IMG/VR virus record: IMGVR_UViG_3300008448_000095
Coordinates: 1 to 57,399 of that record
Source: a virus
Reading direction: 5' to 3' (one strand)
Length of the DNA: 57,399 nucleotides
Shown one piece after another: positions 33,897-52,634 of this stretch (position 1 is its first letter; the number at the start of each line of letters is the position of its first letter). A model generated the notes under the pieces. It was not told the origin of the DNA, did no database searches, and saw only the letters and a program-made list of their open reading frames with translations. The translations under genes and the position numbers were made by a program.

Positions 33897-34388
33897 TCAA
33901 ACGTCGCTGGCTTCGGCCTCAATCTCAGAGTCTGCAGGAGTTGACGCATCAACGTCGATAAGCCTTGCACTTCCAAGCTCCTGACCCCCGAGATTTATCA
34001 TTATGCGCACGCCGCCAGCCGCGCCGGAATCCACTGGTTCATTCTTCGGCTCCAGACCAGCCCACTTCACCGTGGACTTGATGAGGTCCGCTTTGACCGC
34101 TGCGCTTACGTCAGGATTGTGAATCAACAACCAAGAAGTTGTGAGAAGCTCTTCAGCCTGCAGCCGCGCCTTGGTCTTGAAGAGAATGCCCTTGTCACGA
34201 ATCTCGTCCCGATAGCCTTCCACCTTCTTGAGAAAGATCGGGTCCTTATTGAATGACAACAAGTCTTGCGCTTGGATGCTGTGCCGCTCCAAAATTTCAT
34301 CGACCTCCTCACCACTGCCCTCAAGTCTGAGCGCAATGTCGAAGGCTAGGCGGTTTGTCCAACGCGTGGAGTCGTATGCAAGTGACAT
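33897..34388 (-). CDS. Probable terminase small subunit
   Basis: 163 residues, mostly helical: RWTNRLAFDIALRLEGSGEE, EILERHSIQAQDLLSFNKDP, VEGYRDEIRDKGILFKTKAR, LQAEELLTTSWLLIHNPDVS. The N-terminal part could be an HTH (a helix, then a short turn and LLSFNKDPIFLKKV) as in small terminases, followed by an oligomerisation helix and a disordered acidic tail (VDASTPADSEIEAEASDV). As the first gene of the minus arm, directly before terL, it is best read as TerS. The sequence itself is not diagnostic. The ATG has no strong Shine-Dalgarno. Confidence 0.65.
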   Translation of the reverse strand: MSLAYDSTRWTNRLAFDIALRLEGSGEEVDEILERHSIQAQDLLSFNKDPIFLKKVEGYRDEIRDKGILFKTKARLQAEELLTTSWLLIHNPDVSAAVKADLIKSTVKWAGLEPKNEPVDSGAAGGVRIMINLGGQELGSARLIDVDASTPADSEIEAEASDV

Positions 34389-34463: not shown

Positions 34464-34482
34464 TTGTGTAAGAAATACACAA
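34464..34482. promoter_or_regulatory. Palindromic operator-like site 1
   Basis: TTGTGTA-AGAAA-TACACAA: perfect 7-bp arms around 5 bases. It is one member of the 19-bp YTGTG-N9-CACAA family, and its centre is 33 bp from the centre of site 2. It lies in the divergent region, about 80 bases upstream of the small terminase gene, and may control late transcription. Confidence 0.7.
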
Positions 34483-34496
34483 CTTCGCCCCTGAGC

Positions 34497-34515
34497 TTGT
34501 GTATTTTTTACACAA
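34497..34515. promoter_or_regulatory. Palindromic operator-like site 2
   Basis: TTGTGTA-TTTTT-TACACAA: perfect 7-bp arms around 5 bases. Both site 1 and site 2 are followed by CTTCG, so a 12-base block (TACACAACTTCG) is repeated directly at 34476 and 34509. Spacing of about three helical turns would place two bound dimers on the same DNA face. Confidence 0.7.
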
Positions 34516-34703
34516 CTTCGTTTTTTGGGGTCTTGTTTTACGAGGTTTACTACACCCTACCGGCCCCGCGCGCCGTCTGTCCATGTGGCCCCCCCCTGCC
34601 TACCCCCCTCTGTTGTCATACAAAACGGCCTTGGTTGACATTCATGTTGACATACTATGCCTACGGCCTAGTCTAAGGCATAAGCTATTGATATTGCAGC
34701 GAT
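34516..34703. other. Remaining non-coding part of the divergent control region
   Basis: No gene seen. The stretch holds a C-rich run near 34590-34610, two TTGACA hexamers at about 34635-34650 without a good -10 partner, and an inverted repeat TATGCCT / AGGCATA at 34656-34662 and 34676-34682. A promoter for the minus arm should lie in 34389-34700, but I cannot point to a convincing one. Confidence 0.5.
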
Positions 34704-34739
34704 TTGACAACGGCCCCGGCTTGTGCATAATGGACACAA
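34704..34739 (+). promoter_or_regulatory. Early promoter A with overlapping operator-like site
   Basis: Perfect -35 TTGACA at 34704-34709 and a -10 CATAAT at 34726-34731 (spacing 16; ATAATG at 17). The 19-base family site TTGTGCATAATGGACACAA (34721-34739) covers the -10, so a bound protein would block polymerase. It drives the 99-residue gene at 34785, leaving a leader of about 45 bases. Confidence 0.75.
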
Positions 34740-34784
34740 CCCGTCGGGCTGTCCGTCGGGTTTGGCAATGGAAAGGTTAAGACT

Positions 34785-35084
34785 ATGGCAATCGCTTCTA
34801 AGAAAACCGCCGCTACGGAATCCGTCTCCAATGAGCAACTTTTTGAGATGATAAAGCGCCTACAGGCTGAAAACGCTACGTTAAAGGCTGCTAAGGCTGC
34901 CCCTACTAATCGCTTTACTGTTAAACTCTCGCCCTCTGGTAAAGGTAATCTTTGCATATATGGCCTGTCACGCTATCCCTTTAGCTTCTATCGTAATCAG
35001 ATTGAGGCTATTCTGGAAAACGCTGAAATTATTAGGGCTTTTATAGCCCAGAACGAGCCTGCCCTGTCTAAAAAAGGCGAATAA
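34785..35084 (+). CDS. Early hypothetical protein, first gene of the plus arm
   Basis: 99 residues. The N-terminal half is a charged coiled coil (SNEQLFEMIKRLQAENATLK then AAKAAPTNR). The C-terminal half is compact and beta/alpha: RFTVKLSPSGKGNLCIYGLS, RYPFSFYRNQIEAILENAEI. The FTVKLSxKGxxxxYGLxRxPxxxYxxQxxxLL pattern occurs in small early phage proteins of unknown role. It has its own promoter (A) and terminator, so it is a one-gene transcription unit and a candidate for very early host takeover or regulation. Confidence 0.75.
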   Translation: MAIASKKTAATESVSNEQLFEMIKRLQAENATLKAAKAAPTNRFTVKLSPSGKGNLCIYGLSRYPFSFYRNQIEAILENAEIIRAFIAQNEPALSKKGE

Positions 35085-35095
35085 TCTCTATCACT

Positions 35096-35122
35096 GGCCG
35101 GGGCTAGTCCCCGGCCTTTTTT
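35096..35122 (+). terminator. Rho-independent terminator after first early gene
   Basis: Perfect 8-bp GC stem GGCCGGGG / CCCCGGCC with a 5-base loop, followed directly by six T. A strong terminator just 12 bases after the stop codon at 35084. Confidence 0.93.
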
Positions 35123-35146
35123 CGTTTCCTGCCAAGAGGTTATACC

Positions 35147-35308
35147 ATGCAAAAGATTAACGAAATCGCAATCGTTCGCCATTACAAGGGCAAGAGCCGC
35201 ACAATTCTAGTGGGCGTTTATGCCAAGCGGAAACGCGCTGTTTCCAAGGCGTTGGTGGAAAAATACGGGTTTAACCTGAAAGGGGCTGAAAATGCTACAC
35301 GAGCTTGA
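35147..35308 (+). CDS. Small basic early protein
   Basis: 53 residues from ATG 35147 with AGAGG nine bases upstream. MQKINEIAIVRHYKGKSRTI, LVGVYAKRKRAVSKALVEKY, GFNLKGAENATRA: basic, with an alternating beta/alpha pattern. It sits between two strong terminators, so it depends on read-through or an unseen promoter. Function unknown. Confidence 0.55.
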   Translation: MQKINEIAIVRHYKGKSRTILVGVYAKRKRAVSKALVEKYGFNLKGAENATRA

Positions 35309-35360
35309 ATTATTGGCTGTCGCGCTAGCAATGACAGTCGTTGCACAATATCTTTTCTAA
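35292..35360 (+). CDS. Possible 22-residue membrane peptide
   Basis: ATG 35292 lies inside the end of the preceding gene, 8 bases after AGGGG. The peptide MLHELELLAVALAMTVVAQY plus LF is a single hydrophobic helix, and its stop lies 4 bases before the next terminator. Such tiny membrane peptides are common in early phage regions, but the ORF is too short to be sure. Confidence 0.35.
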   Translation: MLHELELLAVALAMTVVAQYLF

Positions 35361-35364
35361 TCTT

Positions 35365-35389
35365 AGCCCCGGCAATGCCGGGGCTTTTT
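35365..35389 (+). terminator. Rho-independent terminator
   Basis: Perfect 9-bp stem AGCCCCGGC / GCCGGGGCT with a 3-base loop and a T run (TTTTTC). It closes the short transcription unit before the long gene-free region. Confidence 0.92.
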
Positions 35390-35683
35390 CTTTACCCGTT
35401 TGTTTACATTCATAGAATAGGCTAGGAAGGCTCCCCAATAGCCTGTTTATTTTCTGGTAGGGTAGTAGCGCCCCGGATTTTCATCGCATCCTACGGCCTT
35501 CCTTGTCGATCCTCTCGCCTATCCCATACCCGGCGTGACCCTGCCCCGGCGCAACGCGCTTTCCTGCCCCGAACGGTCAAGTCTAAGCCCATAGCAAAGC
35601 ACAAGCTAATGGCAAAGCTATAGACTAGGATTATTTTCTCTATATCCAATAGGTTTAGCCATGATTTTGTAGACATATATTTC

Positions 35684-35734
35684 ACTCAAGGGTTACCGGG
35701 CGCACCAAAAAATGCTACTCAAGGGTTACCGGGC
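35684..35734. repeat. 18-base direct repeat
   Basis: ACTCAAGGGTTACCGGGC occurs at 35684-35701 and 35717-35734, start to start 33 bases (about three helical turns). The intervening 15 bases differ. It may bind a protein dimer on one DNA face at the left edge of the origin-like region. Confidence 0.85.
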
Positions 35735-36158
35735 CAAGTATTTGATTTTATTGAGTTAATCTAACAATCTAAAATTTAGGGCAACAATCCAAAAGAAACT
35801 TACACTCGATTTTGCCCCGAAACTTTACATTTTAATACCATATGTGTTTGTTTTTCCTATATATATATATAGAGTTTAAGATAAATAATCTAATAATATA
35901 GAGAAATTTGTGTCTTCCTTTCCAAATTTCCAAATTTTTTGTCCCACACAAAAACGCGCGTCTCCACCCCATAGCTTTTTCACTTTTCCAAATTTTGGTG
36001 ACCCCTACGAAAAAATTTTAGATTATTTATATTATTGTTGTTTTCAAAGGAATTTCTCCGCTGCATTTTAGATTATTGCCATATTGTTGCCACAATTTTT
36101 AGATTATCGCATGTAAAGTTTCCCTCCCAAACTTTACATTTTGTGGCTCCCACTACCA

Positions 36159-36261
36159 AACTTTACATCCGTGTAAAGTTTCAGTCTACAAACAAACTTT
36201 ACATTTCCAGCTAACTTTACATCCGTGTAAAGTTTTAGTCTACAAACAAACTTTACATTTT
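36159..36261. repeat. Tandem 49-base repeat, period 54, built from iterons
   Basis: 36159-36207 and 36213-36261 are the same 49 bases except for one C/T change (36182 versus 36236). Each unit holds three iterons, one inverted, so each half forms ACTTTACATCC then GTGTAAAGTTT followed by AGTCTACAAAC. The near identity shows a recent duplication or selection for exact protein binding. Confidence 0.9.
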
Positions 36262-36282
36262 CACTCCGGCAACCCGTTGATC

Positions 36283-36345
36283 TTGTGCATATTTGACACA
36301 AGCGGCGATTCGTGCAATGCTCGAACTTGTGAACAAAACACACAA
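36283..36345 (+). promoter_or_regulatory. Promoter B with two operator-like sites
   Basis: -35 TTGACA at 36293-36298 and -10 AATGCT at 36316-36321 (spacing 17). One family site, TTGTGCATATTTGACACAA (36283-36301), covers the -35. A second, TTGTGAACAAAACACACAA (36327-36345), covers the start point. It drives the small-gene operon from 36361; AAAGGG precedes that ATG. Confidence 0.75.
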
Positions 36346-36360
36346 CGAAAGGGTTGGGTA

Positions 36361-36699
36361 ATGAAAAAGGGACTCACAAACTGGCAATGCCGCGACTATG
36401 TAACCAAGCTAAAGCCATTTCAGAATAAGAATAAAACCCTATACGGCGATTGGACTGACGCTAATACCTACGTGGTTTATAGCTATGGAAGCCACTTCCC
36501 TATCTACGCGTGGGTGCGCCAAACCAACCGTTGGTATGCCAATGAGGATAGATATAGCTGCACAACTAGTAAGCATATGTCGCAGGTGCGTCCGCCGTTC
36601 GAATTTTCTTTAGTCTCTACCAGCTTTCTCAAATCACTGGCTATTCAAGGCTTCACTGCCATCGCCGCTGCGCGCGTCATTCATGGGGAGATTTTCTAA
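36361..36699 (+). CDS. Hypothetical early protein
   Basis: 112 residues from ATG 36361, the first after promoter B; the open frame upstream runs back through the promoter and is not used. Residues 13-60 hold a small beta domain (YVVYSYGSHFPIYAWVRQTN, RWYANEDRYSCTTSKHMSQV) like the short phage proteins that read YGxHFPI(Y/A)xW and then end with a WYxNxDxYSxTTSRH segment. Such proteins are widespread in phages and uncharacterised. Its stop overlaps the next start (TAATG). Confidence 0.7.
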   Translation: MKKGLTNWQCRDYVTKLKPFQNKNKTLYGDWTDANTYVVYSYGSHFPIYAWVRQTNRWYANEDRYSCTTSKHMSQVRPPFEFSLVSTSFLKSLAIQGFTAIAAARVIHGEIF

Positions 36700-36878
36700 T
36701 GGCTATCGTTCTCACAAAAGCGCAGCGCCAGTCTGTCTATCGCCTATGGCTTAGGGATGAAAAGAAACAGTCTTATCGCCAGTTTCGACGCCGCGTTCAG
36801 CCAGCCTATGGCTGCGTAATGATTAACCTATGGGGAATGTGGCTTGGAATTGAGCCTGATGGATACACGCACAGCTAA
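36699..36878 (+). CDS. Small basic early protein
   Basis: 59 residues, coupled by TAATG to the previous gene. MAIVLTKAQRQSVYRLWLRD, EKKQSYRQFRRRVQPAYGCV, MINLWGMWLGIEPDGYTHS. Basic first half that could form a DNA-binding helix pair, and a C-terminal aromatic segment. Similar short proteins reading RRx..P..gC.M..W.GMWLGIE..GYTHS are common in phages; function unknown. Confidence 0.65.
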   Translation: MAIVLTKAQRQSVYRLWLRDEKKQSYRQFRRRVQPAYGCVMINLWGMWLGIEPDGYTHS

Positions 36879-36896
36879 GAAACAGGAGTAGAATCA

Positions 36897-37100
36897 ATGG
36901 CTAATTGTCTTTGCTCTCGCTGCACTAACCCCATCCCAAAGCGTCGTTACGACCTTGGCTACAGGCTTTGCCTGTCCTGCGGCGATGCCCAAGCGCGCAA
37001 GATTGTTCGCACAGTCGTCCCTCTCCACAAGAGTAATTACGTGCTGGTTACAAGGCGAGAGGACTTAAAAGGGATAAATTCAAAATACGTGCCGGTCTGA
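36897..37100 (+). CDS. Small zinc-ribbon-like protein
   Basis: 67 residues. Cys pairs C4-x-C6-x-x-C9 and C25-x-x-C28 (NCLCSRCTNPIP, YRLCLSCGDAQA) form a treble-clef or zinc-ribbon pattern. The rest, RKIVRTVVPLHKSNYVLVTR, is basic. It resembles phage zinc-finger proteins with the segment VxxxHKSNYxLxT. It may bind nucleic acid or protein. Preceded by AGGAG. Confidence 0.7.
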   Translation: MANCLCSRCTNPIPKRRYDLGYRLCLSCGDAQARKIVRTVVPLHKSNYVLVTRREDLKGINSKYVPV

Positions 37101-37120
37101 AAACTAAAAGGAGAAAACCA

Positions 37121-37360
37121 ATGGAAACAACATTCAAAGAAGCAACGCTGGACGGCAAGCGCATTGCCTATTCATCCACAACCACCTTCTTGGTGCAGGT
37201 GGGCAAAGCCAAGAGCGGATACAAAACGCGGTATTCGTTCACTGGTGATTTACACAAGGCTGTGGCTTACTACTGCGCCATTAACATTGGCAATGGGTAT
37301 AAGAAGCGGCTGTTTTCGCCCGACATGAACAAACCCGTGCTGGCTAAAGCCTATAGCTGA
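37121..37360 (+). CDS. Hypothetical early protein
   Basis: 79 residues with AAGGAG upstream. METTFKEATLDGKRIAYSST, TTFLVQVGKAKSGYKTRYSF, then LHKAVAYYCAINIGNGYKKR. A small beta-beta-alpha arrangement with basic surface, ending MNKPVLAKAYS. The second strand-helix pattern is common to several small phage proteins. Not recognised further. Confidence 0.65.
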   Translation: METTFKEATLDGKRIAYSSTTTFLVQVGKAKSGYKTRYSFTGDLHKAVAYYCAINIGNGYKKRLFSPDMNKPVLAKAYS

Positions 37361-37378
37361 CAACCAAAGGAGAGGAAA

Positions 37379-37585
37379 ATGACAACCATCAGGCCATTCT
37401 TTGAGGACAAGATTGTATTTGTCATATGGAACGATGACAGGCGCGCATGGGTCGCGGCTGAGGGAACGGGACTGTTTTACACCTCTGACCCTGACAAAAC
37501 GCGGCAATTTCCAAGCCAAGCGGAAGCTGAGAAGTGGGCCAAGATCGACGGCAAAGAGACGATCCAGCGCTGGATAGGAGGCTGA
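37379..37585 (+). CDS. Hypothetical early protein
   Basis: 68 residues preceded by AAAGGAGAGG. MTTIRPFFEDKIVFVIWNDD, RRAWVAAEGTGLFYTSDPDK, PSQAEAEKWAKIDGKETIQR. Two strands with aromatic residues, then a helix. Not recognised. It belongs to the promoter B operon. Confidence 0.6.
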   Translation: MTTIRPFFEDKIVFVIWNDDRRAWVAAEGTGLFYTSDPDKTRQFPSQAEAEKWAKIDGKETIQRWIGG

Positions 37586-37586
37586 T

Positions 37587-38039
37587 ATGGGTAGTTTCGC
37601 AAATCCTTTGCTCATACCCTCATCCTTCGCTCAATGCGTTGGTGTTTGTCTAATAGCCTTCAAAACCATATTCGGCGTCCCAGAACACAACCACGACGGC
37701 GATACACTTACACTAAGAACCCCCAACGGGGTCACAAATATTCGTCTGCATGGCATAGACGCGCCTGAATTATCAGAGGCTTACGGAGTGCAGAGCCAAG
37801 AGTATCTGAGAACAATCACAGCGGGCCAAAAGCTGCGTTGTGAACCCGTTGGCGCACACACAAGCTATACGCGCATCGTCGCGCGATGCTTCCTCGAAGA
37901 TGGCAGGGAGATCAACCAGCTAATGGTCGAAGGTGGTCTAGCGCTGGATTGCAAGCGCTATAGCCACGGCTACTACGCCAAGTTTGAACAGTCATGGGCG
38001 CGCAAGCGGCTGATACAGAAGGGATACTGCCATGAGTGA
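37587..38039 (+). CDS. Staphylococcal nuclease-like (SNase/thermonuclease) protein
   Basis: 150 residues. The SNase core is clear: HNHDGDTLTLRT supplies D39 and T40, NIRLHGIDAPEL supplies R53, D58 and E61, and YTRIVARCF supplies R96, the counterparts of the catalytic Arg/Asp/Glu/Arg set. A hydrophobic N-terminus (about 8-30, LLIPSSFAQCVGVCLIAF) could be a signal peptide or anchor. SNases cut DNA and RNA with Ca2+. In a phage it could degrade host nucleic acid. If exported it would act in the periplasm, which would be unusual. Overlaps the next gene by 8 bases. Confidence 0.85.
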   Translation: MGSFANPLLIPSSFAQCVGVCLIAFKTIFGVPEHNHDGDTLTLRTPNGVTNIRLHGIDAPELSEAYGVQSQEYLRTITAGQKLRCEPVGAHTSYTRIVARCFLEDGREINQLMVEGGLALDCKRYSHGYYAKFEQSWARKRLIQKGYCHE

Positions 38040-38349
38040 TTTGATTGCGCGTCTGCGCCATGAAGCAATCGCACGAAGCGGCTACGCGCATGAATACGCC
38101 GATGGACGCACAGTTTGGCATCCAGTCTGCAATGAAGCCGCCGACGCATTAGAGGCGCAGGCGAAGCGGATTGCGGAGTTGGAAGAAGATATAGACCGCA
38201 ATGACGAATGGGCGAAGGGTTTTATTGAAAAGACTGACGCCCGCATCGCGGAACTTGAAGAGGAGAACGCCAAGTTTCGCGCCATGTATGACGAACAGCT
38301 TTTGATGGCTGTGAAAGTCAGCGCCGCTTATCTGGGAGAGAAGGGATGA
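38032..38349 (+). CDS. Coiled-coil early protein, family copy 1
   Basis: 105 residues: MSDLIARLRHEAIARSGYAH, WHPVCNEAADALEAQAKRIA, ELEEDIDRNDEWAKGF then a second helix with RIAELEEENAKF, ending AAYLGEKG. The start ATG lies within the SNase end. Shares its MSD start, helical heptads and LGEK end with the two following genes, and is like the Ea22/ead family of phage early proteins in layout. Function unknown. Confidence 0.7.
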   Translation: MSDLIARLRHEAIARSGYAHEYADGRTVWHPVCNEAADALEAQAKRIAELEEDIDRNDEWAKGFIEKTDARIAELEEENAKFRAMYDEQLLMAVKVSAAYLGEKG

Positions 38350-38633
38350 GTGATAGTAACCGACTTACCGACTTGGCAGAGCGTTTGCGGGACAAGGCGT
38401 TCAAGCGGTGCGGCCCGACGATGGAAGCGGTGCATACCAAGACGGACGAATGGAAAGCCGCCGACGCGATTGATGCGCTTATGGCTGCGCTGAAACCGTT
38501 TGACGAAATGCTACAGCGTGACTTTTCCATCATGTCGGATGACGGGCGTTATAATGATGACTTTACCGCAAAAGTGTTAATGCGTCTTGGCGACCTCCGC
38601 GCCGCCCGCGCCGCTTTGGGAGAGAAGAAATGA
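38346..38633 (+). CDS. Coiled-coil early protein, family copy 2
   Basis: 95 residues, starting MSDSNRLTDLAERLRDKAFK, with DEWKAADAIDALMAALKPFD in the middle and RLGDLRAARAALGEKK at the end. The ATG overlaps the previous stop (ATGA); the ribosome-binding site GGAGAGAAGG is formed by the conserved end of the upstream gene. Function unknown. Confidence 0.7.
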   Translation: MSDSNRLTDLAERLRDKAFKRCGPTMEAVHTKTDEWKAADAIDALMAALKPFDEMLQRDFSIMSDDGRYNDDFTAKVLMRLGDLRAARAALGEKK

Positions 38634-38944
38634 GTGACTTAATGCTGCTTGGCATATTGCGTATGCCATTGGACGACACGCCGGAAGGCTTGGGCGTAAT
38701 TGCATGGACGCAGATTAAGAGCGTTATGCGAGAAGCCGCAAACAGAATAGAAGCTGACGCCGCCCGCATCGCGGAACTTGAAGCTGTGTTTGAAACTAAA
38801 TGGGACGCAGAACAACGGGCGATAAAGGCTTGGCAGGAAAAGACCGGCAAGAACATGACATGGCCTGACCACGCTAAAATGGTCGAATGGTTGCTGGATG
38901 AATTAGACGCCGCCCGCGCCGCTTATCTGGGAGAGAAGGAATGA
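38630..38944 (+). CDS. Coiled-coil early protein, family copy 3
   Basis: 104 residues: MSDLMLLGILRMPLDDTPEG, IKSVMREAANRIEADAARIA, ELEAVFETKWDAEQRAIKAW and ELDAARAAYLGEKE at the end. Shares the RIAELE block and C-terminus with copy 1. ATGA overlaps at both ends. Function unknown. Confidence 0.7.
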   Translation: MSDLMLLGILRMPLDDTPEGLGVIAWTQIKSVMREAANRIEADAARIAELEAVFETKWDAEQRAIKAWQEKTGKNMTWPDHAKMVEWLLDELDAARAAYLGEKE

Positions 38945-39105
38945 GTGAACCCAGATCAATCGAATTGGAACTGCGTTGGCTGCGCGCACGTTTTAACGAC
39001 GCAGAGTGGGAGCAAGATGAAGGGATGATGGCTTCGCTCTCTTATCAAATCAATCGGTTGGAAATGCTACAATCCTTGGGCGAGAGGTTCGACATTCCAT
39101 TCTAA
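38941..39105 (+). CDS. Small hypothetical protein closing the promoter B operon
   Basis: 54 residues, ATGA overlap with the previous gene. MSEPRSIELELRWLRARFND, AEWEQDEGMMASLSYQINRL, EMLQSLGERFDIPF: one helix pair with acidic centre. Not recognised. It is translated from the same repeated GGAGAGAAGG leader as its neighbours. Confidence 0.6.
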   Translation: MSEPRSIELELRWLRARFNDAEWEQDEGMMASLSYQINRLEMLQSLGERFDIPF

Positions 39106-39162
39106 TGGAATGTCCGGTGACTGAAAGGAGCCGAGACGCTAAATCACTGATTTTGTTCGAAC

Positions 39163-39214
39163 TTGACACGCTCAACGTGTTGTGCAATGATCGGACTGTG
39201 AACAAATCACACAA
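39163..39214 (+). promoter_or_regulatory. Promoter C with operator-like site
   Basis: -35 TTGACA at 39163-39168 and -10 AATGAT at 39186-39191 (spacing 17). The family site CTGTGAACAAATCACACAA (39196-39214) covers the start point; within it TGTGA-ACAAA-TCACA is a perfect palindrome. A degenerate copy (TTGTTCGAACTTGACACGC, 39153-39171) overlaps the -35 as in promoter B. It drives the AAA+ ATPase operon; GAGG precedes ATG 39233. Confidence 0.75.
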
Positions 39215-39232
39215 TAACTAAGAGGCAATACC

Positions 39233-40225
39233 ATGCGACCGACTCAGTTAGAAGCTACTCTTACGGCTCTTATCTCTATCAATCGCACGACTACTATCGA
39301 AGGCGCACCCGGTGGTGGTAAGACTACCATTGTTCATGCCGTCGCCAATAAGATGGGTAAACACTATATCGAACGGCATCTTCCTACGATGCTTGTCGAG
39401 GACTTTGGCATACCCGTTATCGGTGGCGATACGCTCACCTATAAAATCCCTGACTGGTTTCCTTCCAAGGGTTCTTCGTGGGATGATGGTAAGGGCGGTG
39501 TGCTATGCTTCGACGATAGGAATCAAGCTAATGCAGATATTCAGAAGGTGCTGGCAAACATTTGTCAGGCTCGTAATCTGCATGGTGTTCCCCTTGCTGA
39601 TGGCTGGACTGTCGTTTCTACTGGCAATCGGCAGTCTGATCGTGCTGGCGCAAACCGCGTTCTTAGCCATCTGCGTAACCGTGAAACGGTTATTGAGTTG
39701 GATACTCACTTGGATGACTCGACGCAGTGGATGATCGACAACGCCGTTAAGCCAGAGGTTATCTCATTCCTTCGCTTTCGTCCCAACCTGTTGCATGACT
39801 TCGATCCGCAGCGTGATAGCAACCCCACGCCTCGCTCTTGGGTCGAAGGTGTTAGCGCAGTGCTTGGCGTTGTGCCTTCCGAGTCTGAGTATGAGTGCTT
39901 CAAGGGCGCAGTAGGTGAAGGCGCTGCGGCTGAGTTTGTTGGCTTCATGCGTATCTTCCGCAAGCTGCCCAACCCCGACGCCATCTTGCTTAACCCTGAT
40001 AAATCCGATGTGCCTTCCGATCCGGCGACACTCTATGCCTTATCGGGCGCTCTGGCTGAACGTGCATCCGACGCTAACTTTGCCCGTGTCTGCACATATG
40101 CCGAGCGTATGCCGCCGGAGTTTTCTGTGCTGACCATTAGCTATGCCGCCCGCAAGAACCCATCACTGGCTTCAACCCAAGCGTTTACGACATGGGCTGT
40201 GAAGCATCAGGATGTGTTGTTCTAA
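39233..40225 (+). CDS. MoxR-type AAA+ ATPase
   Basis: 330 residues. Walker A GAPGGGKTT (24-32), Walker B GGVLCFDDRNQAN (89-100, D94/D95), sensor 1 VVSTGNRQSDRAG and the arginine-rich stretch SHLRNRETVIEL. The FDDRNQA segment corresponds to FDEINRA of MoxR proteins. This group works as chaperone-like ATPases paired with von Willebrand A proteins, and a VWA protein is encoded two genes on. It starts the promoter C operon and its stop overlaps the next ATG. Likely remodels a complex containing the VWA partner; the target is unknown. Confidence 0.85.
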   Translation: MRPTQLEATLTALISINRTTTIEGAPGGGKTTIVHAVANKMGKHYIERHLPTMLVEDFGIPVIGGDTLTYKIPDWFPSKGSSWDDGKGGVLCFDDRNQANADIQKVLANICQARNLHGVPLADGWTVVSTGNRQSDRAGANRVLSHLRNRETVIELDTHLDDSTQWMIDNAVKPEVISFLRFRPNLLHDFDPQRDSNPTPRSWVEGVSAVLGVVPSESEYECFKGAVGEGAAAEFVGFMRIFRKLPNPDAILLNPDKSDVPSDPATLYALSGALAERASDANFARVCTYAERMPPEFSVLTISYAARKNPSLASTQAFTTWAVKHQDVLF

Positions 40226-40653
40226 TGGGTTACCGTTCGGATGTGGTGTTGGGGATTGCGTTCCCCAACAACGCCGCGCTGGTGTCGTTCCTAACAGCGC
40301 AGAAGCTAACAGGCACGAGGGAGATGCAAACAGTTATGGAAGGCTTTGGTGTTACGCATATGTCCGCAGCCTACAAGGAACACGTTGTGCTGTGGGTGTA
40401 TGAGGAACAGGTGAAGTGGTATCCAGACTACCCAGAGGTGATGGCATACAACCAGATCATCCAGAACGCCAAAGGCTTAGACTATTCAACGATTGAAATA
40501 GAGATAGGAGAGGAAACGAATGACATAAAGTTTGAGGTTCACGACGGGACAAAATCAGACTCAGCATGTCTGTATGATGTGTTTGGTTTCCGCCGTGAAA
40601 TAATACGACCTGAAAGCTGGCAAGATATATCCTCGTTTGTCAAGGAGAACTAA
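40225..40653 (+). CDS. Hypothetical protein, MGYRSDV family
   Basis: 142 residues from ATG 40225 (TAATG coupling to the ATPase gene). It opens MGYRSDVVLGIAFPNNAALV, then VVLWVYEEQVKWYPDYPEVM, ETNDIKFEVHDGTKSDSACL and YDVFGFRREIIRP. The MGYRSDVxxxIxF start is widespread in short phage and plasmid proteins of unknown function. Here it is placed inside the ATPase/DUF3150/VWA operon and may be a partner of that complex or just a passenger. Confidence 0.65.
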   Translation: MGYRSDVVLGIAFPNNAALVSFLTAQKLTGTREMQTVMEGFGVTHMSAAYKEHVVLWVYEEQVKWYPDYPEVMAYNQIIQNAKGLDYSTIEIEIGEETNDIKFEVHDGTKSDSACLYDVFGFRREIIRPESWQDISSFVKEN

Positions 40654-40655
40654 CC

Positions 40656-41507
40656 ATGAACCTTAACGACCGTGCGCTGCTGGTGCAGCTTAACATTTCA
40701 CAGTGGACGGCGCGCAAGCATGACAAGCGCGCTACGGAGGACGTTGCTGCGATGCACAACGCTGGCAAATCTGCTGGCCGGTATCACAAAGCGTTGCTTC
40801 CCATGAATGATTATCTGGATAACGTGCAGAAGAAAGCCACGTTGATCCGCACACGCTACTACCAGAACACGTTGCCGTGGGCGATGGATGGCACTCAGAT
40901 GCTTCCATCTGCTAACTACCTGTCGTTTATGACTGACTTTCGCAAGCAGAAAGCGGAGTGGGAGTATGCCGTTGCGTTGTTCATCGACCACTACGATGAC
41001 ATGAAAACCATAGCCAAGCGTGTGCTTGGTTCGCTCTACTCTGAGGCTGACTATCCGTCGGAGCAAGAGATCATCCACAGATTCAAGATGGATATGGCTG
41101 TGTTTCCTGTGCCTTCCACTGACTTTCGTGTGCAGTTATCGAACGATGAACTAAACCATATTCGTGGTGACTTAGAAGCTAGGCTTGCTACTGCACAGCA
41201 AGCGGCTGTGCGTGATGTATGGGATCGACTGTTCGACAAGGTAAAACATATTGCTGACAAGCTGGCCGACCCCAAAGCTATCTTCCGTGACAGCATGGTG
41301 GAGAACGCCAAAGAATTGTGTGAACTACTGCCAAGGTTAAACTTTACTGATGATCCGAACCTTGAGATGATGCGCGCAGAAGTGGAAGCCAAACTAATCG
41401 GCCATCATCCAGAGGCGTTGCGTAACAACCTTGACTTGCGACACGACACTGCGTCCGAAGCGAAAGCTATCATGGATAAGATGTCTGTGTTTATGAATGG
41501 CTTATGA
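40656..41507 (+). CDS. DUF3150-like helical protein
   Basis: 283 residues, helical: MNLNDRALLVQLNISQWTAR, AGKSAGRYHKALLPMNDYLD, YYQNTLPWAMDGTQMLPSAN, YLSFMTDFRKQKAEWEYAVA, then RVLGSLYSEADYPSEQEIIH and a C-terminal domain. Phage proteins with this architecture (helical, with a TLPW..dG.rlLP...Y..F block and an acidic centre) are commonly next to a MoxR ATPase and a VWA protein. I place it in the DUF3150-like group from memory. It could be the bridging subunit. No catalytic residues seen. Confidence 0.7.
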   Translation: MNLNDRALLVQLNISQWTARKHDKRATEDVAAMHNAGKSAGRYHKALLPMNDYLDNVQKKATLIRTRYYQNTLPWAMDGTQMLPSANYLSFMTDFRKQKAEWEYAVALFIDHYDDMKTIAKRVLGSLYSEADYPSEQEIIHRFKMDMAVFPVPSTDFRVQLSNDELNHIRGDLEARLATAQQAAVRDVWDRLFDKVKHIADKLADPKAIFRDSMVENAKELCELLPRLNFTDDPNLEMMRAEVEAKLIGHHPEALRNNLDLRHDTASEAKAIMDKMSVFMNGL

Positions 41508-41601
41508 GATACGATAGCTGCCAGTTTGCTATTGTATAGTCTCACCTGACTTGCATGGTGGTCGAGTGGGACTCGAAAACTGGGAAACGAGGAAGCACTA
41601 A
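41508..41601. other. Structured intergenic stretch before promoter D
   Basis: No ORF. It contains several short helices: an imperfect arm pair around 41505-41545 with ATAGC / GCTAT core, and a perfect hairpin TCGAGT-GGG-ACTCGA at 41562-41576. A tRNA-like D-arm sequence is seen but no tRNA. It could be the folded 3' end of the AAA+ operon mRNA or a small RNA. Confidence 0.4.
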
Positions 41602-41646
41602 GAGTCGTCGCGGCAATCGCGTAACACGCTGCGGCGACTCACTTTT
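41602..41646 (+). terminator. Terminator-like hairpin between the AAA+ and VWA operons
   Basis: GAGTCGTCGC (41602-41611) and GCGGCGACTC (41631-41640) pair over 10 bp with one G-U pair around a 19-base loop, followed by ACTTTTCC. The T run is short, so efficiency is uncertain. It separates the DUF3150-like gene from promoter D. Confidence 0.6.
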
Positions 41647-41654
41647 CCGGCGAC

Positions 41655-41706
41655 TTGACACGCGCCGCAACGTCGTGCATCATCGGGCTGTGAACTGAAC
41701 ACACAA
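41655..41706 (+). promoter_or_regulatory. Promoter D with operator-like site
   Basis: -35 TTGACA at 41655-41660 and -10 CATCAT at 41678-41683 (spacing 17). The family site CTGTGAACTGAACACACAA (41688-41706) lies at the start point, in the same phase to the -35 as in promoters B and C (centre 42-43 bases from the -35 start). It drives the VWA gene at 41719, which is preceded by AAGG. Confidence 0.75.
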
Positions 41707-41718: not shown

Positions 41719-42822
41719 ATGGACTTACTTAAACGCTTATCGAAAGCCAAGACTGGCCTAATCCTAGAGCATCCCTTCATCGGATCGGTTGCCATTAACA
41801 TGCCGTTCGAACTGGACGAAACCATTGCGACTGCTGGCACCAATGGCAAGCGTGTTAGATTTAACCCTGCGTTTATTGAGAAGCTGACTGATGAGGAACT
41901 TAAATTCCTTGTCGCTCACGAGTGCCTTCATCCCATGCTCGAACATAACTATCGCCGCAATGGACGGACTGCCAAGCGTTGGAATCAGGCGGCTGACTAT
42001 GTGATTAACCAGCTTCTTGTCGATGAAAAGATTGGCAAGTTTATCGACGGCGGCTGTCTCAATCAGGCTACCTATAACGCTGGCGGTGGAACCAGTGACG
42101 GTATCTATAACATACTGCCGGAAGATAACGACAACGGGGGAGATGACATCGGTGGCGCTGGCAATGATCTGGAAGATGGTGAAGGTTCACCTGCCGAACA
42201 GGAACAACAAGCCGCAGAGTGGCGTGTCAAAGTTGCCCAAGCCGCGCAAGCCGCGAAGATGATGGGTAAACTGTCGGCTAACATGCAGCGTTTTGTTGAC
42301 GAAGTATTGCAGCCCAAGGTTGCATGGCAGGATGTGTTGCGTCGGTTTGTGCAGAAAGCCAAGACGGATCAGCGCACGTTCGCCCGCCCCAACCGTAGGT
42401 TCTTGGCGCAGGGTTTATATATGCCGTCCATCACTGGCGAGGTTCTTGGTGAGATTGCCATTGCCGTTGATTGCTCTGGCTCTATCGGTCAGCGTGAACT
42501 CAATGAGTTTGCTACTGAAATCAAAGCCATGAAGGAAGATGGCAACCCGTCTGCGTTGCATATCGTTTACTTTGACAGTGAGGTTAGTCACTACGATCAC
42601 TATGGTCGTGACGATGAGGTTGTTATTGAGCCGCACGGTGGTGGCGGCACAGCGTTCAGCCCCATCTTTCAGTATCTTGAGCAAAACAATATTAACCCTG
42701 TCGCTTGTGTCGTGCTTACCGATTTGTATTGCAATGACTTTGGTGACACGCCGGATTACCCTGTGCTGTGGGTAACCAATGGCACAGACCAAGCGCCTTG
42801 GGGTGAAGTAGTTAAGATGTAA
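41719..42822 (+). CDS. VWA-like metallopeptidase-domain protein
   Basis: 367 residues. The N-terminal domain has HECLH (67-71) followed by H76 in AHECLHPMLEH, a zincin-like site, in the setting of a DUF2201-type N-terminus. A Gly/Asp/Glu-rich linker (about 120-165) follows. The C-terminal von Willebrand A-like domain has MIDAS residues D251-x-S253-x-S255 (AVDCSGSIG), the Thr in GGGGTAFSPIF and the Asp in VVLTDLYCND. It is the usual partner of MoxR ATPases. Full set of motifs present. It has its own promoter but the same operator as the ATPase operon. Confidence 0.88.
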   Translation: MDLLKRLSKAKTGLILEHPFIGSVAINMPFELDETIATAGTNGKRVRFNPAFIEKLTDEELKFLVAHECLHPMLEHNYRRNGRTAKRWNQAADYVINQLLVDEKIGKFIDGGCLNQATYNAGGGTSDGIYNILPEDNDNGGDDIGGAGNDLEDGEGSPAEQEQQAAEWRVKVAQAAQAAKMMGKLSANMQRFVDEVLQPKVAWQDVLRRFVQKAKTDQRTFARPNRRFLAQGLYMPSITGEVLGEIAIAVDCSGSIGQRELNEFATEIKAMKEDGNPSALHIVYFDSEVSHYDHYGRDDEVVIEPHGGGGTAFSPIFQYLEQNNINPVACVVLTDLYCNDFGDTPDYPVLWVTNGTDQAPWGEVVKM

Positions 42823-42834
42823 AGGGAGAGTGCA

Positions 42835-43047
42835 ATGGATTACGAATCATTACGTTTATTGGCTGGCCTTCTCTGTGGTCTGTGCTTAGCACAGACCGTA
42901 TGGATCATAGTGCTGCACTCGCAGCGCGACGAAGCTAGAGATATGGCAGGATTTGTAGCACAGGCTGTCGAGGATATTGCAAGAGGCAAAGCTAAAGCGT
43001 TCATGCACATGGGTCGTGTTCACATAACCAATGATATGGGAGAATAA
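42835..43047 (+). CDS. Small membrane protein
   Basis: 70 residues with one hydrophobic helix (about 7-27, LRLLAGLLCGLCLAQTVWII) and a charged C-terminus (QRDEARDMAGFVAQAVEDIA, RGKAKAFMHMGRVHITND). Preceded by GGGAGAG. It follows the VWA gene and could anchor a complex at the membrane; function unknown. Confidence 0.65.
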   Translation: MDYESLRLLAGLLCGLCLAQTVWIIVLHSQRDEARDMAGFVAQAVEDIARGKAKAFMHMGRVHITNDMGE

Positions 43048-43049
43048 CA

Positions 43050-43694
43050 ATGGCCGTCGTTCGTATGTCTGATGAACTGCGTAAAAACATTGAGTCTATG
43101 GCGCGGGCTTCCTTCGATGCTCGTATAGACACAGCTAACAAAAGCCTCGTCGTTCCTATGAGCGGAGATGAAATCTATAACCTGATGTTTGCCGATACCG
43201 TCAATGGTATGCTGGCATTGCCAGATGGTTATATGAGGATGATTGATAGGTTTACCGTCGCCAGTGTAAATGGCGTGTCCATCCATTATGATTTTCATAC
43301 GAGTCAGCCAATGCCGTGGCCGTATGAAATCCCTACTATGCCACACTTTGCGAAGAACAATTCCTATGGGAACACAGTTCATATTGTGTTGCGTATGAAT
43401 GAATCCGGTCTGTGGGATAGCCTAGAAGCTGCGTTCAGAGATTGGCATAAGCGTGTCAAAGACGTAGCCGATTCGCGTGACCAGTTTGTTAGCGGGGTGC
43501 GGGCGATCCTCAATAACAATACAACTCTTGGCGCTGCCATTAAACAGTGGCCCCCGCTGTGGGACTTTATCCCGCAGTATGCCAAGGACAAACACTCGCA
43601 GGTTGTTGAAAAGAAAAAGAGAGAACTGATTGAGAAGCCAGAGGTTGACACCGCAAGCCTGACTGCGATGGCTGCATTTAACAAGATGGTTTAA
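43050..43694 (+). CDS. Hypothetical protein, possibly Nmad5-like
   Basis: 214 residues. Pattern: a basic helical start (MAVVRMSDELRKNIESMARA), beta region (IDRFTVASVNGVSIHYDFHT), an amphipathic helix with LWDSLEAAFRDWHKRVKDVA, then the segment ILNNNTTLGAAIKQWPPLWD and FIPQYA. A helical stretch followed by TL..a...WP....F(I/L)P resembles the putative nucleotide modification-associated group Nmad5. That resemblance is weak; the role is unknown. Confidence 0.6.
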   Translation: MAVVRMSDELRKNIESMARASFDARIDTANKSLVVPMSGDEIYNLMFADTVNGMLALPDGYMRMIDRFTVASVNGVSIHYDFHTSQPMPWPYEIPTMPHFAKNNSYGNTVHIVLRMNESGLWDSLEAAFRDWHKRVKDVADSRDQFVSGVRAILNNNTTLGAAIKQWPPLWDFIPQYAKDKHSQVVEKKKRELIEKPEVDTASLTAMAAFNKMV

Positions 43695-43706
43695 GGGAGA
43701 ATCACC

Positions 43707-44507
43707 ATGCCGATGATTGAATCTTATACCGATGCTGTGCGTTTGTTTGATAGCGCCAAAGATAAGCAGAAGGGTAAACCCCTTCTGTCATTCGGTCGCT
43801 TGCTTAAAGACGGCGATGCGTATGTTATTCATGTTCACGCACTGGCAGTTGCGCGGATCACATCCGACAACGTGTTGGAATATCTGCCGACGGTCGAACA
43901 GTATCGGTCTTATCACAACACTATCGCTATGTCGTTCCATCATGTGGTGCCTGTCCAGTCACTACGTGTCGGACCGTTAAAGTATCGTATCGGTCATATG
44001 AAATGGATCGGAACGAAAGTGCAGAAATGGGGGGTTACTACCAATAATTGGGAAAGACTACGCAACGAAGCGCAGGAATATTTCAAGGGCGTTAAGATCG
44101 ACATGGTAAGTGGCGATTACATTAACCCGCGCCCTGATTTTACGCATACCATTGTGCCAGAGAAGCGCAAGACTTGGCTACGTTGCCTTCGCAATTTCAA
44201 GAACGGCTTGAAGGTTCGCCATAAACTTGGTGTGTTCGATGCGCTTATCAATGAGATGGGCCTGTCGGATGCCAACCGTTGGTCGTATCGGTATGACTTT
44301 GATGGCACGTATATCGACTCGCTTGTTGGCAATATGAAGGAAGGAACCTTCGAAGATAATCTTATGCGTAGCTTTGTGCAGTATGCGAGAGGCCAGACCT
44401 ATGGTGTGATGTCCGGTAAACAAGTTCTGGATACAGCCATGTATCTTCTCAAAGACTTGAGCGTTCCACTGCGCCGTGAGTTCGAGGTATTCGGTGATGC
44501 TGAGTGA
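43707..44507 (+). CDS. Hypothetical protein
   Basis: 266 residues. A compact N-terminal domain (about 1-120) with FGRLLKDGDAYVIHVHALAV and VEQYRSYHNTIAMSFHHVVP, then a helical C-terminus with basic stretches (RKTWLRCLRNFKNGLKVRHK) and YARGQTYGVMSGKQVLDTAM. Not recognised. It precedes the HTH protein, which overlaps it by 11 bases, so the two are co-expressed. Confidence 0.6.
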   Translation: MPMIESYTDAVRLFDSAKDKQKGKPLLSFGRLLKDGDAYVIHVHALAVARITSDNVLEYLPTVEQYRSYHNTIAMSFHHVVPVQSLRVGPLKYRIGHMKWIGTKVQKWGVTTNNWERLRNEAQEYFKGVKIDMVSGDYINPRPDFTHTIVPEKRKTWLRCLRNFKNGLKVRHKLGVFDALINEMGLSDANRWSYRYDFDGTYIDSLVGNMKEGTFEDNLMRSFVQYARGQTYGVMSGKQVLDTAMYLLKDLSVPLRREFEVFGDAE

Positions 44508-45342
44508 GATTAACCAGCAGATATTAGCAATGGCGAATGACGGAGTTAAATACTCCGTCATAGCCGAACGGCTTGGGCTAACCTTCCAAGTTGTTAAGAG
44601 TCGCTTACACCACATGCGTATGACGCCAGAGCAGAAGGATAAGCTGCGCGCCCGTCGCCGTAAGACTAAGCGCGATCCAGTGAAGGCAAGGAAATATATA
44701 AAGGATTACATAAAGAACCACCCAGAGAAACCCGCAGAGTGGAGCAAGGCATACCGTGAAAGAAAGAGAGAAGCCGAATACAAATGGAGACGGGAGAACC
44801 CAGACAAGTGGGCAGAGCAGCGCCAACGCGACAATGAAAAGCGTAAAGCGCGACGAGCAGAAGCGCGTAACACTCCAGAAGCTATTGCAGAGCGCGCTAG
44901 AAAGGCGGCTGAAAAAACTGAGCGAAGCGCAGAGTTAAAGCGGTTACGGTTGGAACGATGGAATGAGAAGCGTAGGGAGCGCAAGCTAAATAACATCTCC
45001 GACTACCAGACTTTGAAAGCTAGACTGGATGCAGACCCTGAGTTCAAAGCACAATATCTTGAGAAGCGGAGACTGATAAATGCAGAACGCCGACGTAAGA
45101 AAAGGGAGGCTATCCCGCCAGAAGAACGGGAGCGCAAAGCCCAACGGGCTAGAGAGGCTAGGATCAAAGCAGTTAGGGAAGCTAACGCGCGTCGTCGTGC
45201 CGAGCGTGAAGCAAACCCGCCGCCCAAGCAGCCTAAAGAGAAGCCTAATAACACTAGGCATTTGCCCAAGGTGGGGGGTAAAATACTAGATAAGCGCAAG
45301 CCCGGACGATTGCTGGCGCTGATGGGATGGAGAGGGTTCTGA
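44497..45342 (+). CDS. HTH protein with long charged single-helix tail
   Basis: 281 residues. Start chosen at ATG 44497, inside the end of the previous gene. Residues about 5-40 form an HTH of sigma-70 region 4 / LuxR type (ILAMANDGVKYSVIAERLGL, VVKSRLHHMR). From about 45 to 250 the protein is almost entirely Lys, Arg, Glu and Ala (KAYRERKREAEYKWRRENPD, LKRLRLERWNEKRRERKLNN) and would form an extended charged helix. The end is more ordered (KVGGKILDKRKPGRLLALMG). It likely binds DNA; a regulator or DNA-organising protein is plausible. Confidence 0.65.
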   Translation: MLSEINQQILAMANDGVKYSVIAERLGLTFQVVKSRLHHMRMTPEQKDKLRARRRKTKRDPVKARKYIKDYIKNHPEKPAEWSKAYRERKREAEYKWRRENPDKWAEQRQRDNEKRKARRAEARNTPEAIAERARKAAEKTERSAELKRLRLERWNEKRRERKLNNISDYQTLKARLDADPEFKAQYLEKRRLINAERRRKKREAIPPEERERKAQRAREARIKAVREANARRRAEREANPPPKQPKEKPNNTRHLPKVGGKILDKRKPGRLLALMGWRGF

Positions 45343-45605
45343 TGAATATAAAGCTAGAACTTAACGAGTATCTCGATCCCCAACGCTATCGCCTTGGGAC
45401 GCGGTTGGTTGATGTCGAACTATTACGGAGGGTTATCAGGCATGTAGAGAAACAGGAACAACTTATTCTGCAAATGCGTGAAGCCATCGAATTGGCTTTA
45501 TCAAAATCATGTAGTCACTGTGCAGGAGAAATGACTGTAGCGCGCAAGCTATGGGAAGATATGGAGATTTACTATGCTGAAAGTAATAGCGATGGTGGTG
45601 ATTAA
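45342..45605 (+). CDS. Small hypothetical protein with Cys pair
   Basis: 87 residues from ATG 45342 (TGATG overlap). MNIKLELNEYLDPQRYRLGT, VELLRRVIRHVEKQEQLILQ, then KSCSHCAGEMTVARKLWEDM. One helical segment and a C-x-x-C pair without a second pair. Not recognised. The 3' end overlaps the secreted protein gene by 32 bases. Confidence 0.55.
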   Translation: MNIKLELNEYLDPQRYRLGTRLVDVELLRRVIRHVEKQEQLILQMREAIELALSKSCSHCAGEMTVARKLWEDMEIYYAESNSDGGD

Positions 45606-45849
45606 CATTGTCATCACACTGGCGTTTGCGTCCGCGCAGACTGTGTATTATAATAACATGCGAGGATCACCGACTGATTCGACGATCTTCTTCGATGGGA
45701 AAGGAATGATGACTGGTAGTAGCTTGCAGGTTGGGAACATGGTGACATACCACGACGCAAGTGGCCGCATGGTGGGTAGTTCAATGCCTACTACGCCACT
45801 TCCGTTAGAGCGTTCACCGTTATCGGAGCATTACCTTGATGGAGAATAA
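45574..45849 (+). CDS. Small secreted protein
   Basis: 91 residues. A signal peptide is visible: MLKVIAMVVINIVITLAFAS with AxA-type cleavage near SAQ. The mature part holds a short repeat: FFDGKGMMTGSSLQVGNMVT and YHDASGRMVGSSMP, a (F/Y)xDxxGxMxGSS element. Such repeats occur in small periplasmic proteins of alphaproteobacteria. In the early arm it may change the host envelope, for example for superinfection exclusion, which is inference only. Confidence 0.6.
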   Translation: MLKVIAMVVINIVITLAFASAQTVYYNNMRGSPTDSTIFFDGKGMMTGSSLQVGNMVTYHDASGRMVGSSMPTTPLPLERSPLSEHYLDGE

Positions 45850-46009
45850 ATACGGGCTGCTAATACTTGCCATGCTTCTGCTGGCAGGATGCTCGTATAA
45901 CCTAGACACTAACGGTGTGTATTACAAATCGAAGAACCGATACAAAACCGAGTGTAAGCAAGTAAGTGAATATAAAATAGACTGTAGAAGCAATGGAGTA
46001 GAGCAATGA
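45839..46009 (+). CDS. Small lipoprotein
   Basis: 56 residues with a lipoprotein signal: MENKYGLLILAMLLLAGC, lipobox LAGC, Cys18 lipidated. The mature part is short (SYNLDTNGVYYKSKNRYKTE, then CKQVSEYKIDC) with two Cys that could pair. ATG overlaps the secreted gene's end by 11 bases and its stop overlaps the next ATG (ATGA). It is not a spanin partner, being far from the lysis genes; superinfection exclusion is a possible role. Confidence 0.65.
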   Translation: MENKYGLLILAMLLLAGCSYNLDTNGVYYKSKNRYKTECKQVSEYKIDCRSNGVEQ

Positions 46010-46422
46010 CTGATAATTCTCTGAGTGAAATCCTTAATCGTGTCGATGACCAACTGTCTATGGAACTTGCACAGCCAAAGACAAAGACTAAGCATCCGAC
46101 CGCAGCCGCGCCTGTCTATGTGGAGGCCGTAAAGAATGATGAGGGTAAACTCCCTTGGCATTTGCTTCCGTCGGATGCCATCGACGATGTGCTTGAGGTG
46201 CTACAGTATGGCGCTGCTAAGTATGGAGAGCGCAACTGGGAGCGCGGTATGGAATGGAGTCGTCCGTTCTCTGCATTGATGCGCCATATGTGGGCGTGGT
46301 GGCGTGGAGAAACGTATGATCCTGAGAGTGGCAAGCCTCATCTTGCCCACGCAGCGTGTTGTGTTTTGTTCCTAGTAGCATACGAACGTAGAGGCGTAGG
46401 CGTAGATAACCGCGTTAAGTAA
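46006..46422 (+). CDS. dATP/dGTP diphosphohydrolase-like protein (DUF5664 type)
   Basis: 138 residues. The helical core reads VLEVLQYGAAKYGERNWERG, EWSRPFSALMRHMWAWWRGE, TYDPESGKPHLAHAACCVLF. This GAxKYxxxNW...AxxRHxxxWxxGExxDxxxGxxHxxHAxxxxxFL pattern is that of the DUF5664 / MazG-like all-alpha NTP pyrophosphohydrolases, in which the Glu and Asp residues bind Mg2+. It would hydrolyse dNTPs to dNMPs. In diaminopurine phages such enzymes accompany PurZ, but no PurZ is seen here. Likely tunes the nucleotide pool. Confidence 0.75.
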   Translation: MTDNSLSEILNRVDDQLSMELAQPKTKTKHPTAAAPVYVEAVKNDEGKLPWHLLPSDAIDDVLEVLQYGAAKYGERNWERGMEWSRPFSALMRHMWAWWRGETYDPESGKPHLAHAACCVLFLVAYERRGVGVDNRVK

Positions 46423-46429
46423 TAACAAC

Positions 46430-46449
46430 GCCGGGGCTACGGCCCCGGC
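46430..46449 (+). terminator. GC hairpin, weak terminator or attenuator
   Basis: Perfect 8-bp stem GCCGGGGC / GCCCCGGC with a 4-base loop, but followed by TACCTTTGG and not a T run. It lies 8 bases after the stop codon and 16 before the next gene, so it may reduce read-through or stabilise the upstream mRNA. Confidence 0.5.
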
Positions 46450-46465
46450 TACCTTTGGTGCGGCT

Positions 46466-46747
46466 ATGAGCAAGAGGTATTTGGATGTGAGTAGCTTATC
46501 ACGCAGTGTAACAACGGGTGCAATCGCAAGCAGTCCTTCATGGACTACATCAACTGCATCTTCCACGGCACCACATAACCACATGGATATACAGGGAGTA
46601 TTAAAGATACAGGGTCACGACATTACTGGCAGTGACGTTAAAGAATTGAAGATGATGCTTGACTTTCTTCGCCATGTCATTGCCACCGATACGCATATGA
46701 GTGAGTTGTGGGTAGCATACAAAGCAAAAGAAAAGATACTGAGGTGA
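46466..46747 (+). CDS. Small hypothetical protein
   Basis: 93 residues. A Ser/Thr-rich start (VSSLSRSVTTGAIASSPSWT) is followed by MDIQGVLKIQGHDITGSDVK and ELKMMLDFLRHVIATDTHMS, ending VAYKAKEKIL. The C-terminal helix resembles small coiled-coil proteins. Not recognised. It and the next gene end in the shared element VxYKAKEKIL / VAAEAKKRM. Confidence 0.5.
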   Translation: MSKRYLDVSSLSRSVTTGAIASSPSWTTSTASSTAPHNHMDIQGVLKIQGHDITGSDVKELKMMLDFLRHVIATDTHMSELWVAYKAKEKILR

Positions 46748-46751
46748 TGAA

Positions 46752-46988
46752 ATGTATATGGTTGTTCATCCAGTTAGGCAATACACAGATAGTAGAGGCA
46801 TAAGCAACAGCATTGTGGACACGCACTTGCTGGAGCAAGTTGTGAACCAAGTGCAGTATAATTTTACAGAAACAGATGAAAGACTGAAGAAGCTGGAGTC
46901 GTTTCTGGAATTTACGCAGACACAATACCCTAATGTGATTGAAGCGTACAGGGTAGCTGCCGAGGCAAAGAAAAGAATGGGTGTGTAA
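46752..46988 (+). CDS. Small hypothetical protein
   Basis: 78 residues: MYMVVHPVRQYTDSRGISNS, THLLEQVVNQVQYNFTETDE, RLKKLESFLEFTQTQYPNVI. Helical. Its stop overlaps the DNA polymerase start (TAATG), so it is translationally coupled to it. Function unknown. Confidence 0.6.
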   Translation: MYMVVHPVRQYTDSRGISNSIVDTHLLEQVVNQVQYNFTETDERLKKLESFLEFTQTQYPNVIEAYRVAAEAKKRMGV

Positions 46989-50350: not shown

Positions 50351-50376
50351 CACCTGTGTAAAGTAGGAACAATATA

Positions 50377-52217: not shown

Positions 52218-52228
52218 GAGGTAAGGCA

Positions 52229-52630: not shown

Positions 52631-52634
52631 GGCA

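Follow-up and report, generated by a model that had tools for sequence, protein, structure and literature searches.

Seven copies of a short inverted repeat, YTGTG-N9-CACAA, in the genome of an uncultured tailed phage raise the question of whether they form one operator code and, if so, which protein reads it. The phage is known from IMG/VR record IMGVR_UViG_3300008448_000095 (positions 1-57,399), and the window analysed here is the whole of this 57,399 bp stretch.

Organization of the genome

The two ends of the record share a terminal overlap of 114 bp, so that it assembles as a circle, and a 62,412 bp close relative carries the same ATPase gene near each end. The minus arm holds the virion genes (terminase, a portal-like head-tail adaptor, internal virion proteins and tail fibres). 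Genes for replication and takeover lie in the plus arm; among their products is a family A DNA polymerase sharing 38% identity with its counterpart in Rhizobium phage RHph_TM3_14A and 36% with the one in Pseudomonas phage KPP25.

Four transcription units, named here after their promoters P1 to P4, make up the plus arm, all on the plus strand. The P1 operon (34785-35308) encodes small proteins of 99 aa (34785-35084) and 53 aa (35147-35308); a PC4-like fold considered for the first of these was discarded, as the model is poor and unsupported by any PDB match. The P2 operon (36361-39105) comprises small early genes, one of them encoding an SNase-like protein (37587-38039). At 38032-38944, related small genes stand in tandem (IAELEEEN.../...RAAYLGEK) and are strongly variable among close relatives. 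The P3 operon (39233-41507) encodes an AAA ATPase (39233-40225) and two more genes. In the gap ahead of P4 (41508-41650), a strong hairpin (GAGTCGTCGCGG...CTGCGGCGACTC) is followed by T-rich DNA and probably either terminates the P3 operon or is a small structured RNA. The P4 arm (41719-57084) encodes a DUF2201 metallopeptidase-like protein, the DNA polymerase, a dCMP deaminase, a DnaA domain IV protein, an exonuclease, a VRR-NUC-like endonuclease, a helicase, an HTH protein and a primase/helicase, the last of which contains an inverted pair of perfect DnaA boxes (TTATCCACA), spaced 43 bp apart, at 54468-54519.

Seven exact cores at a single spacing

All seven sites listed by the first-pass annotation are exact matches to YTGTG-N9-CACAA, and the 57.4 kb hold no further one. 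Sites 1 (34464-34482; TTGTGTAAGAAATACACAA) and 2 (34497-34515; TTGTGTATTTTTTACACAA) are copies 1 and 2 of an array with a 33-bp tandem period that lies upstream of the leftward arm, and are indeed, as had been described, perfect palindromes with 7-bp arms placed 33 bp apart. Site 3 (34721-34739; TTGTGCATAATGGACACAA) overlies the -10 element of P1. Site 4 (36283-36301; TTGTGCATATTTGACACAA) includes the -35 element of P2 within its right half, and site 5 (36327-36345; TTGTGAACAAAACACACAA), 44 bp from site 4, lies in the P2 start region. The start regions of P3 and P4 hold site 6 (39196-39214; CTGTGAACAAATCACACAA) and site 7 (41688-41706; CTGTGAACTGAACACACAA), respectively.

The seven exact matches compare with a mean of about 0.13 in 60 order-3 Markov sequences. 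When two mismatches are allowed there is no enrichment (99 matches versus 94 expected), and the signal therefore resides in the exact cores. N9 alone stands out in a scan of spacers from 0 to 25 bases, with seven matches against at most two at every other spacing, and an agnostic count of spaced 5-mer dyads in the window ranks TTGTG-N9-CACAA as the most frequent. The genome search with a matrix that had been proposed with the sites scores them at 20-27 bits, the next match at 11.8 and the remainder at 8.4 or below; as the matrix was built from the sites and their orthologues, only this score gap is informative. Across the 21 distinct sites of the matrix set, TGTG and CACA are invariant, the ends are Y/R and the interior is non-palindromic.

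Read on the minus strand, site 3 includes at 34722 a perfect match to the DnaA-box 9-mer, TTATGCACA, which is the consensus DnaA box. Among the 14 half-sites, TTATNCACA 9-mers are represented by this exact copy (34722) and by one TTTTNCACA (34506). Most sites share just the CACA/TGTG part of the DnaA box, and its TTAT part is unconserved.

A candidate eighth site at 50354 was rejected: its CTGTG half is mostly kept, but the relative L010 does not keep the other half, and the sequence there is itself a repeat of origin type, GTGTAAAGT. The surrounding segment (50345-50378), just upstream of the VRR-NUC-like gene, shows a conserved TTGACA followed by GTGTAAAG, and several outgroup phages have a similar CTTGACA-N3/4-GTGTAA element in the same place. 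This segment is a possible internal promoter, to which the origin-repeat protein, perhaps the HTH_3 protein P0001 discussed below, may bind.

Placement of the sites on early promoters

The first-pass annotation had assigned five of the sites to four sigma70-like promoters, and TTGACA elements are present at all four positions (34704, 36293, 39163 and 41655). P1 (34704-34731) combines TTGACA and CATAAT across 16 nt and matches the consensus at 11 of 12 positions. The other three promoters have 17-nt spacers, with a weak -10 in P2 (36293-36321; AATGCT) and moderate ones in P3 (39163-39191; AATGAT) and P4 (41655-41683; CATCAT). The five promoter sites lie in intergenic DNA preceding a gene start, on exact TTGACA elements; that five of seven should fall between -15 and +60 of a plus-strand TTGACA has a probability of about 5e-7 under random placement. 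The fixed phase proposed for the start-site copies also holds, the centres of the sites at 36327, 39196 and 41688 being 43, 42 and 42 bases from the -35 element.

Each promoter site overlies a -35, a -10 or a start region; the position upstream of the -35 that is typical of activators is left free throughout. Placement of binding sites over promoter elements is typical of repressors, so that repression by polymerase blocking is the most economical reading of this arrangement.

Conservation among relatives

Relatives were retrieved using the ATPase, the first P1 gene, a promoter pattern and candidate DNA-binding proteins. The core is kept at P1 in every relative fetched that covers this promoter, and among the relatives covering each of the others it is kept at the upstream P2 copy in 10/10, at P3 in 8/8 and at P4 in 4/4. 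The second P2 copy (site 5) is missing from three relatives (L010, L019 and L110). L110 has a different promoter in place of P2, of P1-type layout, with the site over the -10 element.

Within the close relatives the outer letters of the sites are invariant, and their interiors and flanks vary. None of 40 core columns is variable, versus 118 of 295 other columns, a count in which the rows of the second P2 copy were selected for possessing the site and the other rows were not so selected. The interiors of both P2 sites are almost wholly rewritten in L009, with both cores retained. TGTG-N9-CACA is kept at P1, as TGTGCGTTTYATGCACA, even in the distant loci L111-L113, where the first P1 gene is merely 40-44% identical, and L112 has further near-copies of the site among its origin repeats. 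No longer contigs of this short-contig group were found.

Outside this clade, about 80 loci from more distant phages, the majority with the same ATPase, show no N9 enrichment: TGTG-N9-CACA gives 25 matches in these outgroup loci, versus 13-44 at other spacings. Both the specificity of the sites and their retention at orthologous promoters thus give good support to the coherent plus-arm operator code claimed at the outset. From these sequence comparisons, we conclude that the sites are, with high probability, operators of the plus-arm early promoters.

A stand-alone DnaA domain IV protein as candidate regulator

We propose that the TTGTG-N9-CACAA sites would be operators of one sequence-specific transcription factor acting at all four early plus-arm promoters. 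Host sigma70-type RNA polymerase would probably fire P1-P4 on entry, because each -35 is consensus and no phage RNA polymerase was detected (PF00940, for T7-type single-subunit RNA polymerases, was unmatched in the window and in the relative G001, and matched no control genome either). By then occupying the -35, -10 or start region, the factor would block polymerase and shut the early operons off jointly; the two copies flanking P2, 44 bp apart, could bind cooperatively.

The most likely factor appears to be P0005 (49408-49695, plus strand), the 95-aa stand-alone DnaA domain IV protein of the P4 arm. P0005 scores 35.4 bits against PF08299 (Bac_DnaA_C; curated cut-off 31.5; E 1.1e-8), and its residues 18-90 match TIGR00362 (NCBIfam) at model positions 348-421 of 437 alone; the AAA+ ATPase domain III of the DnaA initiator is lacking. 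Its AF2 model (pLDDT 88.8) was compared with the PDB using Foldseek, and the top 11 matches are all DnaA, with TM scores of 0.65-0.73 and individually weak E-values (0.02-1); they include the DNA-bound DnaA domain IV structures 3PVP and 1J1V. Searching the PDB with a profile of the P0005 family retrieves 1J1V (E 8.7e-7), in an alignment that includes the RDH motif.

Every site-bearing genome that covers the P0005 locus has the gene, which was found in G001, G004 and G005, all with sites; G038, which has P0005 and no sites, is uninformative as its early promoters are not covered. P0005 is absent from all 29 outgroup records tested, ten of them longer than 50 kb, and the nearest outgroup, L011, keeps both genes flanking the P0005 locus and has neither P0005 nor sites. 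This co-occurrence is not decisive because about ten other clade-specific genes share the same distribution.

As P0005 is encoded in the P4 arm, it would repress the promoter of its own gene as well, a negative feedback acting with delay. Each inverted half, TGTG or CACA, which is what the sites share with DnaA boxes, would be contacted by one of two P0005 subunits; the invariance of these halves and the non-palindromic interior fit such a pair of short recognition sequences. The 13 bp between half-site centres place them on different faces of B-DNA, an arrangement unusual for a simple HTH dimer. This counts against the model, as do the likeness of most sites to DnaA boxes in CACA alone and the lack of the code in unrelated phages with such domains. 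We therefore assign the operators to P0005 tentatively, on circumstantial grounds and at slightly under an even chance, and hold the joint reading, of one operator code with P0005 as delayed repressor of the early operons, at the same level of confidence. A further-reaching version is doubtful: a detached DnaA DNA-binding domain would have turned master regulator and, through inverted half DnaA-box sites over P1-P4, the promoter of its own operon included, would set when early expression ends and may, in addition, compete with host DnaA for the DnaA boxes of the host.

Rival binders of the operators

The same operators might instead be bound by a host-encoded protein, either host DnaA at the DnaA-box-like halves or another host palindrome-binding regulator, which would tie the early genes to host physiology. 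We regard this as unlikely. Several half-sites do resemble DnaA boxes, and yet most sites match the box in CACA alone; a common host could explain why the code is confined to one clade of phages. The CRP/Clp site TGTGA-N6-TCACA has the TGTG...CACA halves in common with the sites and is one base shorter (GTG-N8-CAC) than they are; a CRP-like site was rejected on this spacing, since GTG-N8-CAC (the CRP/FNR spacing) yields no site in this phage. A precedent is offered by alphaproteobacterial phages, in which sites of the host cell-cycle regulator CtrA, with the motif TTAA-N7-TTAA, cluster in intergenic regions (PMC9437464). The present sites are likewise clustered in phage intergenic regions; the motif is a different one, whereas the regulator in those phages is a host protein, and predicted DnaA sites showed no uneven distribution in the phages tested there (PMC9437464).

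It is rather improbable that the binder is a clade-specific phage protein without a recognisable DNA-binding domain, for example the products of 35147-35308, 42835-43047 or 45327-45605. These three genes have the same clade-specific distribution as P0005, and the first, a basic protein of 53 aa encoded by the second gene of the P1 operon, would as a first-operon regulator be a case of classical autoregulation. No HTH or other DNA-binding family was found in any of the three, whereas P0005 combines an identical distribution with a recognised DNA-binding domain.

Two HTH proteins named as candidate regulators by the first-pass annotation did not survive comparison with the relatives. P0001 (53854-54156, plus strand), an HTH_3 protein, has a real Xre-type HTH and is encoded in the clade genomes that cover its locus. 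It is also family-wide (22 of 37 records tested), with a recognition helix closely similar throughout (SRxTYxxWxxG), and all ten outgroup records longer than 50 kb carry it, although the outgroup loci lack both the code and any N9 enrichment; that it is the repressor is hence improbable. P0002 (44476-45342, plus strand), an N-terminal HTH protein, is disfavoured because its HTH half is missing in G005, a relative that has the sites. P0005 is a better candidate regulator than either.

Relation to known systems

Multi-operator repressor regulons are known in phages, among them the coliphage P1 C1 operators, the mycobacteriophage L5 Gp71 stoperators and the lambda CI/Cro operators. Like these, the present system has a short motif repeated at several phage promoters and one phage protein, here a candidate, that would read them. 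It differs from them in its motif, in that the candidate is a DnaA-type domain rather than a lambda- or L5-type repressor, and in that the sites occur only at early promoters and in one divergent array.

P0005 resembles DnaA domain IV (PDB 1J1V, 3PVP) in its predicted fold and RDH motif, and one operator holds the consensus box. Unlike DnaA, it stands alone without an ATPase, and the sites are inverted pairs, TTGTG-N9-CACAA, in which the TTAT of the box is mostly lost. HTVC010P-type phages have a DnaA-like core protein (PMC6811365), and these pelagiphages and Rhizobium phage RHph_N28_2 likewise encode proteins with a DnaA C-terminal domain; however, the identity is 27-34%, the genomes are unrelated and the stretches checked have no TTGTG-N9-CACAA code. 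In unrelated phages whose DnaA domain IV proteins are 34-47% identical, neither this code nor any surplus of DnaA boxes is seen. A general rule by which a phage DnaA domain IV protein implies this code was rejected, since distant carriers lack it. No bacterial relatives of P0005 were found in GTDB genomes at the sensitivity used, and the open-access literature yielded nothing directly relevant on a phage DnaA domain IV regulator or on this motif.

The code marks out a regulon of early genes common to a clade of uncultured podovirus-like phages; a limited literature search turned up no prior description of this code. If P0005 is the regulator, the stand-alone DnaA domains of several phage groups, for which we found no reported role, would gain a testable one, and phage early transcription would be linked to the DNA-binding code of host replication initiation.

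The terminase-side array and the putative origin

The 33-bp array adjoins the putative small terminase gene (33897-34388). Its copy number varies among relatives from 0 to 4: L087 has four tandem 19-bp palindromes at an exact 33-bp period (5727-5844), compared with two in the window, L103 has one copy and one degenerate copy, and L106/L107 have none. The array might serve the minus arm. A switch of the regulon to the late arm, as had been suggested, is conjectural: the minus arm of the record has no site, no leftward promoter was identified at the array, and the pair itself is variable in number.

That the sites bind replication or packaging proteins instead, most plausibly at the array, is highly improbable: the array does reach two to four tandem copies in some phages, next to the putative small terminase gene and near a GC-rich element, and an AT-rich putative origin lies just upstream of P2, but five of the seven sites hold fixed positions on four promoters, two of them far from origin and terminase gene, and L106/L107 lack the array though they retain the promoter sites.

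The GC-rich element (34545-34605; ACTACAC...CGCGCGTCAGTCCATGTGGCCCC) lies beside the putative small terminase gene, is conserved, partly even in L111-L113, and is possibly a packaging site or terminator. The AT-rich stretch upstream of P2 (35640-36260) contains nine of the window's ten ACTTTACA/TGTAAAGT repeats, some as inverted pairs, together with a 51-bp tandem repeat; it is probably a replication origin, and the region is also found in L111-L113.
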